This document shows, piece after piece, positions 54,808 through 64,000 of a stretch of 64,000 nt of DNA. The stretch's first letter is position 1, and every line of letters starts with the position of its first letter. The position numbers and the translations under genes are program-made. Source of the stretch: Marinobacter sp. es.042 (GTDB taxonomy: Bacteria; Pseudomonadota; Gammaproteobacteria; Pseudomonadales; Oleiphilaceae); NCBI RefSeq assembly GCF_900188315.1, contig NZ_LT897781.1:3348001-3412000 (forward strand). Reading direction: 5' to 3'. Under the pieces are notes generated by a model. It was not told the DNA's origin. It saw nothing but the letters and a program-made list of their open reading frames with translations, and searched no databases.

Positions 54808-55125
54808 TCAGGCTGCGGCGCAGCCGTTGTCTCCGGCGGGCGTCTTACCAAGTACATCTTCATAGAAAAATGCCAGGGCCTGGCTTGCCTGATTGAAACG
54901 CGCCCGGGATACCCGCAGACGATCGCTCAGGTACTCCAGAAACAGCCGGCGGTCTTCATTGGCCAGCGCATCCGGATCTTTCATGTCGTTAAACAGCACG
55001 AACCGGGTGATCCAGTGCAGGTAGGTTTGCTCTGAGCGTTGAGTGAGCTTGTGCTTGTGTATGGCGTCCTTGACCCGTGCCACCAAGCCTGGCTGGGACT
55101 GTTCCAGCGCTTCCGTGATGTCCAT
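54808..55125 (-). CDS. Orphan integron-integrase-like N-terminal (SAM-like) domain
   Basis: The 105 residues read like the N-terminal core-binding domain of IntI-type tyrosine recombinases: VKDAIHKHKLTQRSEQTYL, HWITRFVLFND, and FNQASQALAFFYEDVLGK, the last matching the SxxTxNQALxALLFLYxxVLG stretch of integron integrases. No catalytic domain (R...HxxR...Y) follows in any frame; the protein ends with KTPAGDNGCAAA and a stop. ATG at 55125 has AGGAAGAG upstream, so it looks expressed rather than a random remnant. It lies about 0.54 kb from the nearest attC site. Domesticated DNA-binding protein or relic are both possible. Confidence 0.75.
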   Translation of the reverse strand: MDITEALEQSQPGLVARVKDAIHKHKLTQRSEQTYLHWITRFVLFNDMKDPDALANEDRRLFLEYLSDRLRVSRARFNQASQALAFFYEDVLGKTPAGDNGCAAA

Positions 55126-55258: not shown

Positions 55259-55519
55259 TTATTTCAGGGCTTCAAGCTTGTCGATGTACTTCTGCATGGC
55301 CTCATCGCTGGACATGCCCTTGGCCTTTTCCCAGGCATCAAACTTGGCGCGGCCGACAAAATCCATCATGCCCGGGCGCTTGCCGGACACATCGCCCTCG
55401 GTGGCCTGCTTATAGAGCGCATAGAACTCCAGTTTCATCTCGTTGGACGGTTTGAAGTCGCCCTCGGCAGTCTGGATGTAGTTGACAGCTTCTTCGAAGC
55501 GGGTTTTCAGGTCACTCAT
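55259..55519 (-). CDS. Acyl-CoA-binding protein
   Basis: This 86-residue four-helix ACBP domain begins MSDLKTRFEEAVNYIQTAEG and has the binding motif YALYKQATEGDVSGKRPGMMDFVGRAKFDAWEK. It binds long-chain acyl-CoA in the cytosol as carrier or buffer. ATG at 55519 has AAGGAG six bases upstream; the longer frame to 55639 is not supported. It is the last ordinary gene before the cassette array. Confidence 0.93.
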   Translation of the reverse strand: MSDLKTRFEEAVNYIQTAEGDFKPSNEMKLEFYALYKQATEGDVSGKRPGMMDFVGRAKFDAWEKAKGMSSDEAMQKYIDKLEALK

Positions 55520-55665: not shown

Positions 55666-55749
55666 GATCAACGCGAAGCTAAGCGGCGCCCTGACAAGGG
55701 CGTCCGGTGTAGGCCGTAGGCCGAAACAAACTTAAGCGCCTTGTTAGGA
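55666..55749 (-). other. attC recombination site 1 (84 bp)
   Basis: Read on the minus strand, the site runs from TCCTAAC to GTTGATC, with the outer arms AACAAGGCGCTTAAG and CTTAGCTTCGCGTT pairing imperfectly. The inside holds GGCCTACGGCC and GCGCCC/GGGCGT pairs. It follows the lipoprotein cassette gene. The right-hand core GTTGATC departs by one base from GTTRRRY, so this is the least certain of the four. Confidence 0.65.
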
Positions 55750-55772
55750 ATTTGAATATGCTGACTCCCGGC

Positions 55773-56195
55773 TCACTGAGCCAATTGCGAAGAGATTTCG
55801 CGCAGAATTGGCTGCAATTCACGAGCACTATCCTGTATCACCCTATGGTACCGTGCAGAAGGCTTTTCCGTTTGAAGCCAATCGACTTCAAAAATAATGT
55901 TATCAAGTCTTTTATCGGCTGAAGCCACGAGCAAATCAATGTCGTAGTTGTAATGCCCATCAATACTGCATCTGTTCATCTTTCGCGATAAATCTTCAAC
56001 TCCACCCGTTTCTTTGACCGTACGTTCGATACATTCGAAGCATACATTCTCCGCTGTGATCTCGGACTCAAGCTGCTTCATCTGCCCAATCATCACGGAG
56101 ATGTGATTTCTGCAAGTCTCAACTGCTGGATCCTGCCTAGAACACCCTGCCAAGAGAACTAAGATCAAAATTGAAATCGAGAGAGATTTGTTCAA
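55773..56195 (-). CDS. Cassette-borne small lipoprotein
   Basis: This 140-residue protein has a signal and lipobox (ILILVLLAGCSRQDP, Cys near residue 18). The mature part is helical with three further Cys (ETCRNH, VCFEC) and no recognised domain. TTG at 56195 is the apparent start, with AGGA contributed by the 3' core of attC site 2 just upstream. The previous cassette lies 9 bp up from the start. The function is unknown. Confidence 0.7.
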   Translation of the reverse strand: MNKSLSISILILVLLAGCSRQDPAVETCRNHISVMIGQMKQLESEITAENVCFECIERTVKETGGVEDLSRKMNRCSIDGHYNYDIDLLVASADKRLDNIIFEVDWLQTEKPSARYHRVIQDSARELQPILREISSQLAQ

Positions 56196-56203
56196 ACCAC
56201 AAT

Positions 56204-56275
56204 TCCTAACGCCTTGCTCACCGGAAAATTGGGAGCGCAGCGAGTAATTTTTCCGTGTGCAGCAACTTGTTATGC
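56204..56275 (-). other. attC recombination site 2 (72 bp)
   Basis: On the minus strand it starts GCATAAC and ends GTTAGGA. The outer arms AACAAGTTGCTGCACACGG and CCGGTGAGCAAGGCGTT pair with a few bulges around an AT-rich inner stem and a TGCGCTC apical part. The stop codon of the OLD-family gene (56270) lies within its first core, typical of cassettes. Confidence 0.85.
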
Positions 56276-58144
56276 ATTGCTACGCAAGACACGCTCAATG
56301 ATTTTAACTACGTCATCGTCTTTATCTATTGTCACAGGAAAGCCTTTAACATTAAGAATCTTACTTTCTATATCTATCGTTAATTTTCTACCATCAACAG
56401 AACATTTAAATATGTTGGCGCGTTCCCCAAGAATAGTTTTAGCTAATATATTGATGTCTTGCGTAGTTGTCTTTTCATTTGCGCTTAATCTGGCAGTTGC
56501 TGGTGCTGCAATGGAAAGAAGTATATCACTTAGTGATTCCGCCTCATCAATCCGTTTTCCGTCAGATGCGTGTTCAATACAACGGACTACATCACCTAGG
56601 TTTTCTCTGATTTCTGTAATTGAACTCTGATCTAAGTGCTCAATTTCATCAACGGCAGCAGTGGGCTTTCCTTCTGACGTATAAATATCAGAAGCTTGAT
56701 AATATGATTCAATCGCCCCCTTCCTTAAAATAAAACACCCAGATTCTTCTAGTAATCGCAATACAACCTCTAGCCGGTCTTGCATGGAAGACCATTTATC
56801 GGCGTTGTTTAAACCATTTAAATCCGAGCCAGCCAAACCCATTAGTGTGCAGAAAGCAGATCTTCTTTTGACTTTCTCATCAACTGGCTCTTCGGCGTTA
56901 ACGTAGTAAGGATGCATTTCAGCCAGTTTAGATATATCCCCCCAATTAGGACCTACTAATGAACAAAAATCGCTATATGTTGAAGATGCGAGTTTTATAG
57001 CTGAGGGCGCTCCAAGTTTCGAGGCACTTGCATCTGCAGCAGGGGAATTGGCTAAAAAGCATTGGACCAGTTCCATGTCATCTGTAAATGCGTCAGCGTC
57101 TGCGAGAACTACTGGATTTTTCCCAATTAGCCTCATGAACTTTGCTACAACTGGCATTTGACCTTTGCCAATTACCGGTAGCAATTGAGAGCCTGCAGCT
57201 TCGAGATGAAGCTCAAGTTTGTTGGAAATGAACGACGCAATCATTACATCACTTGGCCCTTCTACTAAGAGCGGCCTTCGGCAAAACAGTGAAAGCTTAT
57301 GCTCTTGGCCTAGCCGGGCGATCAAAGCTTGGAGCTTTCTGTTTTTCAATTGTTCATTGTTGGGATTTAGCTGGACAGGAGGCTTATCTAAATCATGACA
57401 AAATATTAGCGACGCTAGGTCACTAGGCTTGGTGATTCGGAGCATTTCTGTCGAATGCGTAGCCATAATCACTATCTTTTTATACCCACCTTCAGATGGG
57501 TGTCCAGCTGCAGTGATCATTTCATTCAATAAAAATGACTGCAGTTGTGGGTGGAGCGACACTTCAGGCTCATCAATTAATAAGGCTCCTACTTCATCGT
57601 CATACAAGGCTGCCAGAATGCCGACAAGATGAAGTAATCCTGATGCTTCTCGACCTGACGAGTATGGTTTAGCTGTGGTATCTAATCTTGCAAATACCAC
57701 CTTTAGAATTCCGGCATCCCATTCAATGATCAAATCCCGTTTGAACAGCTTTCTTAATCGCTCTTGCACCTTAATTAATATATCTGCGCGCTCAGAAAGA
57801 GTTTGGAAATCACCATTTAGCGTTTCCGTTTGATGCCTTCGGGTTGTGTCGTGTTTTGACCCAAAATTCGCGCTTTCATAATCCGGGTTACTTCCGTGAT
57901 GACCATTGTAATCTGAGCGATATTGCTCAAGTAGCCCCATTCTTCCAGCAGACAGAAAGCGAACCTTTTTCCCATTTACTGCGGAACCAAGCGGCTGTTT
58001 TAAACCTCTCAGAAGGTGAGTTTTACCACCACCATTTGGGCCAATGAGAACGGTTAGTCCTCCTTGAAGCTCTATATCTCTAGTAAAGTTGCCATTGTGG
58101 CTATTTACATCTGCTTTAATGCTTATTGGAAAATTCAAGATCAT
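56270..58144 (-). CDS. OLD-family ATPase with TOPRIM nuclease domain (defence candidate)
   Basis: This 624-residue protein has an ABC/AAA-type ATPase in its first half: Walker A IGPNGGGKTHLL (near 35), signature-like SSGREASGLLHLVGIL (near 165), Walker B GALLIDEPEVSLHPQ (near 190) and His switch MATHSTEM (near 230). The second half carries a TOPRIM domain with Glu in LLVEGPSDVMIASF (near 310) and DxD in PVVLADADAF (near 355). This is the layout of OLD nucleases such as P2 Old and the GajA subunit of Gabija. No UvrD-like partner is adjacent, so it resembles a stand-alone class 1 OLD protein. It is AT-rich relative to neighbours. An AAGGA lies very close to the ATG at 58144; TTG at 58138 is an alternative start. 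Confidence 0.85.
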   Translation of the reverse strand: MILNFPISIKADVNSHNGNFTRDIELQGGLTVLIGPNGGGKTHLLRGLKQPLGSAVNGKKVRFLSAGRMGLLEQYRSDYNGHHGSNPDYESANFGSKHDTTRRHQTETLNGDFQTLSERADILIKVQERLRKLFKRDLIIEWDAGILKVVFARLDTTAKPYSSGREASGLLHLVGILAALYDDEVGALLIDEPEVSLHPQLQSFLLNEMITAAGHPSEGGYKKIVIMATHSTEMLRITKPSDLASLIFCHDLDKPPVQLNPNNEQLKNRKLQALIARLGQEHKLSLFCRRPLLVEGPSDVMIASFISNKLELHLEAAGSQLLPVIGKGQMPVVAKFMRLIGKNPVVLADADAFTDDMELVQCFLANSPAADASASKLGAPSAIKLASSTYSDFCSLVGPNWGDISKLAEMHPYYVNAEEPVDEKVKRRSAFCTLMGLAGSDLNGLNNADKWSSMQDRLEVVLRLLEESGCFILRKGAIESYYQASDIYTSEGKPTAAVDEIEHLDQSSITEIRENLGDVVRCIEHASDGKRIDEAESLSDILLSIAAPATARLSANEKTTTQDINILAKTILGERANIFKCSVDGRKLTIDIESKILNVKGFPVTIDKDDDVVKIIERVLRSNA

Positions 58145-58187
58145 TCCTTCGAGTTAATATCTGCAAAATGCTTGGGTAACATCTAAT

Positions 58188-58259
58188 GCATAACGCCTTG
58201 GGTAAGCCGCCGGGACGGAGCGCAGCGGAGTACCGGTCGGCTTGACCCACTGGTTAAGC
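58188..58259 (-). other. attC recombination site 3 (72 bp)
   Basis: On the minus strand it starts GCTTAAC (matching RYYYAAC) and ends GTTATGC. The arms AACCAGTGGGTCAAGCCG and CGGCTTACCCAAGGCGTT pair with a one-base bulge, the usual strand-choice signal of attC. The stop codon of the next cassette gene (58254) lies inside the first core. Confidence 0.88.
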
Positions 58260-58682
58260 ATCCCGAGCCTCGACGACCCTCACACTTGGATTTTCCTGGG
58301 AGAGGACATGGAGAAGGTCATTCATAGACACGAATGCATAATGAGTAACTTTATGGCTTTTGTACTCTTCTGCCGCGTGAGTTCGCGCAGCATACAAATC
58401 TGCCCACTTTGAGTCAGGGACAATCAAAGTTGGGTATGTGTATGACTTGAATTCGGTAGCTGCGCACGCCGGCAACTCCGGAAGATCTATCAAACCGAAT
58501 GTTTCATCTTCCCACTGGACTGCCATAGGAGAAGTAAACGTCAGCTCAAGGTCCTTATCAAAGCCACCAATGACCCTTGAGAAGTGCATCGTGATGACAA
58601 GCCTTGGGTTGCGCTCGGAGAACCAACAGTAGGATATATCTGCGCACGGCACATCGAGCGATTCAAGAATTTCCCACTTAAT
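58254..58682 (-). CDS. Cassette-borne cytosolic protein with probable ATT start
   Basis: The 142-residue product has no function I recognise. The frame has no ATG in its first part, and the first GTG (58652) lacks a ribosome-binding site. AAGGAG followed by six bases leads to ATT at 58682 (IKWEILESLDVPCADISYCW), which I take as the likely start. The sequence has SERNPRLVITMHFSRVIGGF, AVQWEDETFGLIDLPELP and HYAFVSMNDLLHVLSQENP. No signal peptide or membrane segment is seen. The stop lies in attC site 3. Confidence 0.7.
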   Translation of the reverse strand: MKWEILESLDVPCADISYCWFSERNPRLVITMHFSRVIGGFDKDLELTFTSPMAVQWEDETFGLIDLPELPACAATEFKSYTYPTLIVPDSKWADLYAARTHAAEEYKSHKVTHYAFVSMNDLLHVLSQENPSVRVVEARDA

Positions 58683-58698
58683 GACGTTCTCCTTTTGT

Positions 58699-58799
58699 GC
58701 TTAACGCCAAGCACAGCGGCGGCCTTGGAGTGGCGACGAAGGAGCCACGTAAAGGGCGTCCGGCGGCCATCGGCCGCGTACTGATGCGAATTGTTAATG
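58699..58799 (-). other. attC recombination site 4 (101 bp)
   Basis: On the minus strand it starts CATTAAC and ends GTTAAGC (matching GTTRRRY). The outer arms AACAATTCGCATC and GTGCTTGGCGTT and the inner GGCCGCC/GGCGGCC pairs form a long imperfect hairpin. It follows the membrane-protein cassette gene, whose stop is 52 bp away. Confidence 0.8.
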
Positions 58800-58850
58800 G
58801 CTGACTGGCCACAAACATAGACCTGAGAGCCAAGACTGATAACCACTTTC

Positions 58851-59273
58851 TCACCTCTTTTCCTTAAGAGCAAAAAATGACAACAACAGAATATACACTG
58901 ATGAGACTATAACCATGTTTTCTTCTATTGTAGACTTCGTTCGTATTACTGCAGCCTCATATTCATCAGTGCCATAAACAACCTCGCCTCTATACTTTAG
59001 TGCCGCTATACTATTTTCGCCTACTAAACGAACCGATACCTCTTGAAAGTCCCTTACCCGATACCAAAATCCTCTTGCAGCCTTATTTGGCACAGCAATA
59101 TTCAAGTAACCGACTCCATCACTGATAGAAAACAATCCTTGAGGTGATCTGCTCTTCCCTTTCACAACTATTTTTTTCCACTCGGAGTAGGAGATTTCAT
59201 GCTTTGGTCCTCCATGAAAAATATATAAGATAACCATTAAAGTAACGTAAACAAATGTTAGTAACTTCTTCAT
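58851..59273 (-). CDS. Cassette-borne small membrane protein
   Basis: This 140-residue protein has an N-terminal hydrophobic anchor (residues 4-18), a central soluble domain of about 90 residues (ISYSEWKKIVVKGKSRSPQGLF, VGYLNIAVPNKAARGFWYRV), and a C-terminal helix (about 116-134, MVIVSSVYILLLSFF). It is AT-rich compared with the chromosome, with no recognised family. ATG at 59273 has no clear ribosome-binding site. A protective or immunity-like role is only a guess. Confidence 0.65.
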   Translation of the reverse strand: MKKLLTFVYVTLMVILYIFHGGPKHEISYSEWKKIVVKGKSRSPQGLFSISDGVGYLNIAVPNKAARGFWYRVRDFQEVSVRLVGENSIAALKYRGEVVYGTDEYEAAVIRTKSTIEENMVIVSSVYILLLSFFALKEKR

Positions 59274-59892
59274 CTAAAACACCGACTAAACGCTTTAATC
59301 AATTAAAATAATGGACTATCTATGATGATGAAAAATATACTGTAAATATAGCCATTTTAATTTTTTCACGAGTGATATCTGGCTTTCCCTCTCTCGATCC
59401 ATGAGCTCAGTATTTCCATGAGGGCGTCGATATTTACTGCACCTTAACAGCTAATTATACGAACGTGTTCGCCTATCACGCATTTGGGAAAATCCTAGCG
59501 TTGATCTTTTAGATAATATTTTGGCTTTTAGAATCATAAACCTATGTGCCGTTTCCAACAGTTGATGCCGGAGTAAAACGTCCACTTTTCCCGATTCACT
59601 TCCGTGGAGGGGCGTATAACTCCCAGACCTCCCATACATTTTCTGTGCCGTATCAGAGGGTTGCCAGCATTTCTCCGGTTGCCTTTCGGAGTTTTGCGAA
59701 CGCATTCGTATAACTCCGTTGTCACCAATACCGGCAGGGTAGCCCAAACCACTGAATTACGCACAAAAGTGATGCCTTTTGTTGAGTAGTTCATGGTGTC
59801 TCTGGGGATTACGGTGATAAGGTTTTTGCTGTATTGAAAGCCCTCCGTTAGGAAAGGCATCAAGGAAGTAATCGGTTGAAAAGGAAGCTCGC
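59274..59892. other. AT-rich tract without a supportable gene
   Basis: These 619 bp hold only short overlapping frames on both strands with no recognisable domain or ribosome-binding site. The tract contains an 18-bp inverted repeat (59455 and 59696) and a direct repeat CGTATAACTCC (59613 and 59707). It may be a decayed cassette, a small non-autonomous element or the lost right flank of the array. Confidence 0.5.
59455..59713. repeat. 259-bp segment bounded by 18-bp inverted repeats
   Basis: The left end reads TTATACGAACGTGTTCGC and the right end, on the opposite strand, TTATACGAATGCGTTCGC (16 of 18 identical). No target-site duplication is obvious and no transposase is encoded inside, so a MITE-like element is only one reading. 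Confidence 0.4.
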
Positions 59893-60342
59893 GTGAAAGC
59901 ATTCGTAGTTTTGGTCTCTCTCTGCCTTATCCCCCTCTCCGCAAACGCCGGCGTCTACAAATGGGTAGATGCCAATGGCCAGACCCACTTCGGAGACCGT
60001 CCACCGGCTAAAGCGGCATCAAGTGAAGTCGGGTTGAAGGCCGCTCCGGCCAGCGTGGATGCGGGTGCCAGGGAACGGCATCAGAAGATGACCGAGTTTC
60101 TGGATCAGCAGCAGGAAGAACGGGAGGCCCGGCAGGCAGCCAATGCCAAGGCTGAAGAGAAGGCAGAGAAGCGAGCCGAGCTGTGCAGAAAGCTTCGGGC
60201 GCGTCTCAAGTTCCTGGCCAGCGTTTCGACCTTTTACAACATCAACGATCAGGGCGAGCGGGTTTATGTGAATGAGGCCGAGAACGCCCAGATTCGAGAG
60301 GATTTCCGGGCGAAAGTGCGCAAAACCTGCGGCAACTTGTAG
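59893..60342 (+). CDS. DUF4124-domain exported protein
   Basis: This 149-residue protein has a signal peptide (residues 1-19, LCLIPLSANA) and then the DUF4124 motif GVYKWVDANGQTHFGDRPP. The rest is a charged coiled-coil-like region (QQQEEREARQAANAKAEEKAEK) and a C-terminal part YNINDQGERVYVNEAENAQ with a Cys pair. Function is unknown. GTG at 59893 is preceded by AAAAGGAAG, a good site. Confidence 0.85.
   Translation: MKAFVVLVSLCLIPLSANAGVYKWVDANGQTHFGDRPPAKAASSEVGLKAAPASVDAGARERHQKMTEFLDQQQEEREARQAANAKAEEKAEKRAELCRKLRARLKFLASVSTFYNINDQGERVYVNEAENAQIREDFRAKVRKTCGNL

Positions 60343-63306: not shown

Positions 63307-64000
<694 letters not shown>

Follow-up and report, generated by a model that had tools for sequence, protein, structure and literature searches.

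How an array of gene cassettes comes to sit in a chromosome with no integrase gene beside it is a question raised by one stretch of the Marinobacter sp. es.042 chromosome (64,000 nucleotides, G000:C1:3348001-3412000, from a genome of 3.94 Mb in one contig; hereafter the window). An earlier note made from this stretch alone had described, between positions 55666 and 59273, four attC-type sites that each close a minus-strand gene, with neither an integron integrase nor an attI site in view. That note missed two further arrays with the same platform, one intact integrase gene (intI), and integrase-less platforms that are common genus-wide. We regard it as probable that positions 55666-59718 are an integron outpost, in which four cassettes lie before an attI platform, and that dispersed arrays of this kind are served by one integrase (IntI) in trans. 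Below, G labels denote genomes of a 124-genome set of the genus (G000 is this genome), L labels denote fetched stretches, and the arrays, platforms and loci of this chromosome are called A, B and C, with C lying in the window.

The window array and its attI platform

Because RNAalifold returned no common base pairs on an alignment of attC sites (model R1), ten base pairs were placed by hand in a second covariance model, R2. Its training set was 28 attC sites from arrays A and B, none of them in the window. When the full 64-kb window was searched with filters off, the best four matches of R2 were the four sites of the earlier note, exact to the base and all on the minus strand, with core boxes as it had given them; the next matches have E values of 1.1 and 1.7. 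Three of the four have E < 1e-5, and attC 2, at E 0.049, makes the fourth site weak on its own. The terminal site, attC 1, is 94% identical over 77 nt to a site of array A (blastn). All four sites lie inside 3.1 kb, and the cassettes bounded by their G^TT crossovers measure about 538, 1984, 511 and 743 bp. The note was also right that stops fall inside the site in two cases (the genes with ends at 56270 and 58254; the stops at 55773 and 58851 lie outside) and that the genes are AT-rich. The G+C content is 41-47% in the four 1-kb windows over 56-60 kb, 50% at 55-56 kb, and 51-64% in all others.

The statement that no attI is visible did not hold, since a homologous attI platform closes the array (59445-59718). 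Platform C is homologous to the site that intervenes between intI and the first cassette at locus A, and it ends at a G^TT crossover, as an attI does. In blastn comparisons it matched platform B at 85% (52 nt) and 75% (107 nt) identity and the platform between array A and intI at 83% (52 nt) and 80% (71 nt). A complete integron has intI adjoining attI; at C a DUF4124 gene follows the platform instead. A PF13495 search of the genome gave three matches, and near the window array it found no integron integrase, only a stand-alone 105-aa domain gene. With four attC sites and no local intI, array C is by definition a cluster of attC sites lacking an integron integrase (CALIN), as had been proposed, and it has an attI.

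One integrase and three arrays in the chromosome

A blastn search of the island against its own genome returned arrays A and B. The chromosome thus carries three attI platforms, with intI at A only. The IntI encoded there is full length and well over the TIGR02249 cut-off (427.8 versus 265 bits). Its gene is preceded at platform A by a LexA-type box, the motif of which we take to be CTGT N8 ACAG, and is followed by genes for a pterin dehydratase, ImuA, an IMS-family (ImuB-like) protein and an error-prone DNA polymerase. Across 80 kb of searched sequence, 56 attC matches have E no higher than 1, of which 15 fall in array A and 41 in array B; 28 of the 56 are the training sites of R2.

In L005:3324-9036 intI, an SOS-type integrase gene, adjoins a pterin dehydratase gene and SOS mutagenesis genes (imuA, IMS-family, error-prone DNA polymerase). 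The gene names imuB, nrdB, trpE and trpG are putative, given from the protein sequences with no family match. A second, more distant IntI-like gene (48%) lies beside nrdB in G116 (L269:394-1353), and one at 49% occurs in G121. The present genome holds an IntI-like fragment with two stops at G000:C1:2737647-2738039 (47%).

Platforms across the genus

An alignment of 47 copies gave a platform length of about 275 bp. In 45 of these copies the sequence varies as far as TAACAGC or a close variant of it, and this motif corresponds to the minus-strand crossover GCTG^TTA. The opposite end is GTATAACTCC. Beyond this end, most intI-linked copies continue into a stretch with a LexA-like box and intI, and the others into other chromosomal sequence.

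A platform probe matched 75 of the 124 genomes. Copies with at least 100 aligned nt number 110, in 67 genomes; these are lower bounds, since at most six candidates were scored per genome. Excluding shorter matches (24 of 134) removed two genuine copies at locus C (G108 and G080). Full intI adjoins 27 of the 110 copies, an intI fragment adjoins 8, and no intI was found beside 75, some of which may be cut off because intI-side contig ends were examined for minus-strand copies only (1 of the 75 lies at an end). Rows were entered by hand, with second pieces of one copy omitted, and intI rows were entered at 66% identity or more, leaving aside some short fragments on other contigs, namely those of G096, G084, G068 and G073 and the second of G027. 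By these counts, two or more platform copies are present in 35 genomes and two full cognate intI genes in none. An intI-less copy is present in 55 genomes, 22 of which carry a full cognate IntI somewhere.

The right flanks of the 47 aligned copies fell into 15 clusters. Splitting the intI-linked cluster by the sequence past intI, and merging neighbours and same-locus cases, left about 15 neighbourhoods. Away from locus C, 22 of the 25 intI-less platforms fetched have attC at E 0.01 beside them (one of the other three, L081, has only 96 bp on its array side), and all 207 of 207 attC matches are on the array side and strand of the platform. The platform end sequence occurs in 46 named stretches, 43 of them titled Marinobacter, and no match was found in the plasmid and phage records searched. 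Outside the genus it occurs in a Granulosicoccaceae strain, a metagenome-assembled genome labelled Actinomycetota, and Mangrovitalea (L146, L147 and L148).

The place of intI differs between species. It lies at locus A in this genome and several others, and beside nrdB in G034, G053, G047, G009 and G031. Within the 1.5 kb fetched, locus A of G034, G053, G047 and G009 has no platform and no intI; locus A of G031 could not be judged, its flank being split. At locus A of L069, intI is lost. In the right flank of L077, a platform at another locus is accompanied by a 25-codon piece like the 3' end of nrdB (76% identical); the segment appears to have carried part of its neighbour along. In L094 and L097, likeness to intI-linked copies extends some bases past the platform end. 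The boundary of the platform is therefore not fixed. Judging from the differing places of intI and from the L077 piece, platforms appear to have travelled as segments whose ends vary, some with intI and some lacking it, and surplus copies of intI appear to have decayed.

When two other insertion loci were compared with relatives that have no array, the insertion was intergenic and no clear target duplication was seen, in flanks too diverged to be sure. In L101, an array, its platform and some 400 bp more lie between putative trpE and trpG genes, which are about 17 bp apart in relatives.

Cassette differences and sharing

The earlier note had called the locus an island in a conserved stretch of chromosome, and this was borne out by two near relatives. 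Between the same flanks (left 90-92% and right 81-85% identical to those here), locus C holds a single different gene in L049 and two different ones in L048, so that the cassettes of the three genomes are wholly different and the genes are not an operon that always stays together. A search of locus C for remnants of intI in L048, L049, L050 and L063 gave no match at E 1e-10.

Cassette 3 as a whole is 95-97% identical to cassettes in G118 and G020, two distant species of the genus. Identity is 94-100% in each 50-bp bin over 58200-58699 and at most 67% in the bins outside, falling at both attC crossovers. In G118 the matching right flank has 69% identity.

Within this chromosome, arrays A and B have in common a 539-bp segment at 100% identity and a cassette of about 430 bp at 99-100%, which occupies position 1 at the intI-less attI B. 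In G057, the first cassettes of the intI array and of an intI-less array are identical over 425 bp, and an 820-bp block of G036 has 99.8% identity between arrays A and C. Nearly identical copies of the cassette of about 430 bp occur three times in array B (G000 2011919-2014039, L017) and once in A. Its sameness with the 425-bp cassette of G057 was judged by the end only.

We also compared attI copies within genomes. The best within-genome pair has a median identity of 86% in genomes with a full cognate intI (n=18) and 73% in those without (n=12), 4 of which (G060, G085, G095 and G114) carry a more distant IntI (49%). The difference is significant (Mann-Whitney p 0.0007), uncorrected for descent, and p is 0.001 without G020, the pair of which is a possible assembly duplicate. 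This comparison covered 79 copies, with short copies L243, L248 and L249 dropped and L069, L079, L092 and L106 absent from the alignment. Status was assigned by hand, and G045, G068 and G118 were set aside as ambiguous for intI.

Features of the window and its neighbours

Coordinates are collected in Table 1. The cassette 2 protein matches PF13304 (65.6 bits) and PF20469 (38.8 bits), and its best PADLOC matches, among 94 weak ones, are GajA, AriA and Old; by this likeness the single-gene OLD-like protein is possibly an anti-phage gene. The products of cassettes 1 and 4 gave no match in Pfam and NCBIfam searches, and that of cassette 4 has, by eye, hydrophobic stretches at both ends. Rfam and transfer RNA scans of the window gave no match. 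At 63611-63995 on the minus strand, open reading frames (ORFs) encode WL or AL as a short motif that recurs, forming a small tandem repeat.

We considered the stand-alone Phage_int_SAM_4 gene as a broken intI of array C and rejected this, since 97 of the 124 genomes carry it as a single-domain gene standing alone (at least 55% identity, hand count; internal stop in 6 of the 97 rows) and it lies at the wrong end of the array. A search with its protein gave 161 matches, and among the 120 matches listed the named ones are mostly Marinobacter.

Table 1. Features of array C and its flanks (window coordinates) and of arrays A and B (chromosome coordinates)
Feature	Position	Strand	Remarks
Stand-alone Phage_int_SAM_4 gene	54811..55125	-	105 aa; resembles IntI N-terminus
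Left flank, acyl-CoA-binding protein gene	55259..55519	-	PF00887; not a cassette
attC 1, terminal site	55666..55749	-	R2 50.5 bits, E 1.7e-8; R' GTTGATC abuts chromosomal flank
Cassette 1 gene	55773..56195	-	ORF, 140 aa, lipoprotein-like by eye; cassette about 55672-56209
attC 2	56204..56275	-	R2 20.4 bits, E 0.049; AAC/GTT cores
Cassette 2 gene	56270..58144	-	624 aa, OLD-like ATPase with TOPRIM domain; cassette about 56210-58193
attC 3	58188..58259	-	R2 38.3 bits, E 7.1e-6
Cassette 3 gene	58254..58652	-	132 aa, product without assigned function; cassette about 58194-58704
attC 4	58699..58799	-	R2 40.8 bits, E 2.1e-6
Cassette 4 gene	58851..59273	-	ORF, 140 aa, first position at attI; cassette about 58705-59447
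attI platform copy C	59445..59718	-	Crossover GCTG^TTA at 59448/59447; intI-side end ...GTATAACTCC; no intI after it
Right flank, DUF4124 gene	59893..60342	+	PF13511; in place of the intI of a complete integron
Array A	about 1.617-1.626 Mb		Ends at intact intI
intI at locus A	G000 1627206-1628198		330 aa, no internal stops; 1.78 Mb from window
Array B	about 1.990-2.014 Mb		About 40 sites, without intI

Interpretation and alternatives

If the window array is an outpost of the kind proposed, IntI would be made at locus A, would excise cassettes from any array and would insert them at any attI copy, and several dispersed arrays would thus share one integrase in trans. Recombination of attI C with attC by IntI is putative, and IntI may act on attI C in trans today. 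The extra platforms would have come from the copying of whole integrons or platform segments, with decay of surplus intI. A broader statement, to which we give about even weight, is that one SOS-linked integrase acting in trans keeps a distributed integron of dispersed attI sites and arrays, that the attI copies of a genome stay alike mainly while a cognate integrase is present, and that many CALINs elsewhere may match this pattern.

Several observations weigh against the proposal. Overall, attI C is only 61-62% identical to A and B, with just the two ends aligning, and array C has attC sites but no cassette in common with A or B of this genome. Service in trans is for these reasons less sure for C than for B. 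The transfer of cassette 3 carries no indication of direction. A promoter scan of 59250-59900 found none on the cassette strand and one site on the other, no more than in shuffled sequences. The common platform end has exceptions, since L092 and L106 do not align at the crossover, and so does the likeness of attI copies in genomes with intI, namely G080 (54.5%, attI C versus the intI-linked attI) and G099 (59.9%). Cassettes at least 95% identical between arrays occur in 3 of 7 genomes with intI and in 1 of 10 without (G062, a 606-bp segment at 97.5%). Outside G000 the comparison covered about 8 kb per array and showed no such cassettes in G069, G053 or G117; G034 could not be judged, and G034 and G036 had 96 and 819 bp of one array. 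Several genomes have attI-only arrays with no cognate intI found (G001, for example, has three platforms), and so presence alone is no proof of use.

The main rival is that a complete integron stood here and was stranded when its local intI was lost, with later decay, leaving attI as a fossil and cassettes that can be lost only by deletion. We consider this rather unlikely. Decay of intI is common, as the 8 of 110 platforms beside intI fragments and locus A of L069 illustrate, attI C has diverged further than the other two copies in this genome, and arrays of this kind are kept in genomes where no cognate intI was found, all of which would fit a relic. Against it, cassette 3 moved recently between species with its ends at the crossovers, the cassettes at locus C are wholly different in this genome, L048 and L049, and the four relatives searched have no intI remnant there. 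Divergence of attI C is also uneven: its array end is 83-85% identical to A and B, and most of its middle has no blastn match.

Arrays may also have been seeded by the platform of about 275 bp as a mobile unit with inverted-repeat ends, moved without intI by some transposase or by IntI. An inverted repeat does lie at the platform ends, matches in dozens of copies span about positions 7 to 283 with mostly sharp ends, and intI-less copies sit in many neighbourhoods. This explanation appears improbable to us, because the nrdB-like piece of L077 and the longer likeness in L094 and L097 show that the boundary is not fixed, intI-bearing platforms have also relocated (to locus A in some species and the nrdB locus in others), no target duplication appeared at the two compared loci, within the limit set by their diverged flanks, and plasmid and phage records gave no match. 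Entry of cassettes at a chromosomal site other than attI (attG-type), which would give a CALIN without a platform, has been described (Loot et al. 2024, as cited in the available text of PMC12444791). Such an origin is very improbable here and is refuted by platform homology: the array closes on a sequence homologous to the attI beside intI, and the crossover falls on the same base in both. That the genes form an ordinary minus-strand operon with chance palindromes accords with their lying on a single strand, and deserves hardly any credence; it is refuted by the E values of the attC model, by the different genes between the same flanks in relatives, and by the exact transfer of a cassette.

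Comparison with known integrons

Whether CALINs are dead relics or working stores of cassettes is a question made testable by a genus in which integrase-less arrays have their own attI, may hold cassettes identical to those of the intI array, and vary in cassette content from relative to relative.

CALINs are more abundant in Bacteria than integrons with intI, according to the text available of PMC9668308, and their mobilisation in trans is stated in that source and in the accessible part of PMC12444791. The latter also gives CALINs in about half of Xanthomonas genomes, at seven loci away from the intI locus. Like array C, these lack a local intI and have two or more attC sites. The arrays described here carry, at C and at many other loci, an attI platform homologous to that beside intI, a feature on which the available text is silent for Xanthomonas. 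In a Shewanella prophage, a CALIN next to a complete integron starts with an attI of its own (PMC9892861, in the part available). That case is a single prophage. The arrays here lie in chromosomes across the genus, and the plasmid and phage records searched gave no match. Sequence of attI has been described away from its usual place, as part of unusual cassettes of mobile integrons (PMC12901181, available text). The pieces there lie inside cassettes, and ours are platforms of arrays at other loci. The available part of PMC10295459 lists Marinobacter sp. LQ44 as having a CALIN and an In0. In our literature search, which covered few subscription papers, the texts available contained no description of intI-less attI copies in Marinobacter, of a genus-wide set of intI-less platforms, or of likeness dependent on intI. 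Outside class 1 integrons, attI escapes detection by IntegronFinder 2.0 (PMC9024848, available text), and the pattern could therefore be widespread and unseen. If our proposal is true, many CALINs elsewhere may be outposts that are unrecognised since attI outside class 1 is not searched for.

Sedentary chromosomal integrons of the Vibrio type consist of chromosomal attC arrays, an attI and IntI. The Marinobacter system is like them in having chromosomal attC arrays, attI and IntI, with a LexA-like box before intI at locus A. It is unlike them in having several separate arrays, each with an attI, and intI at only one.

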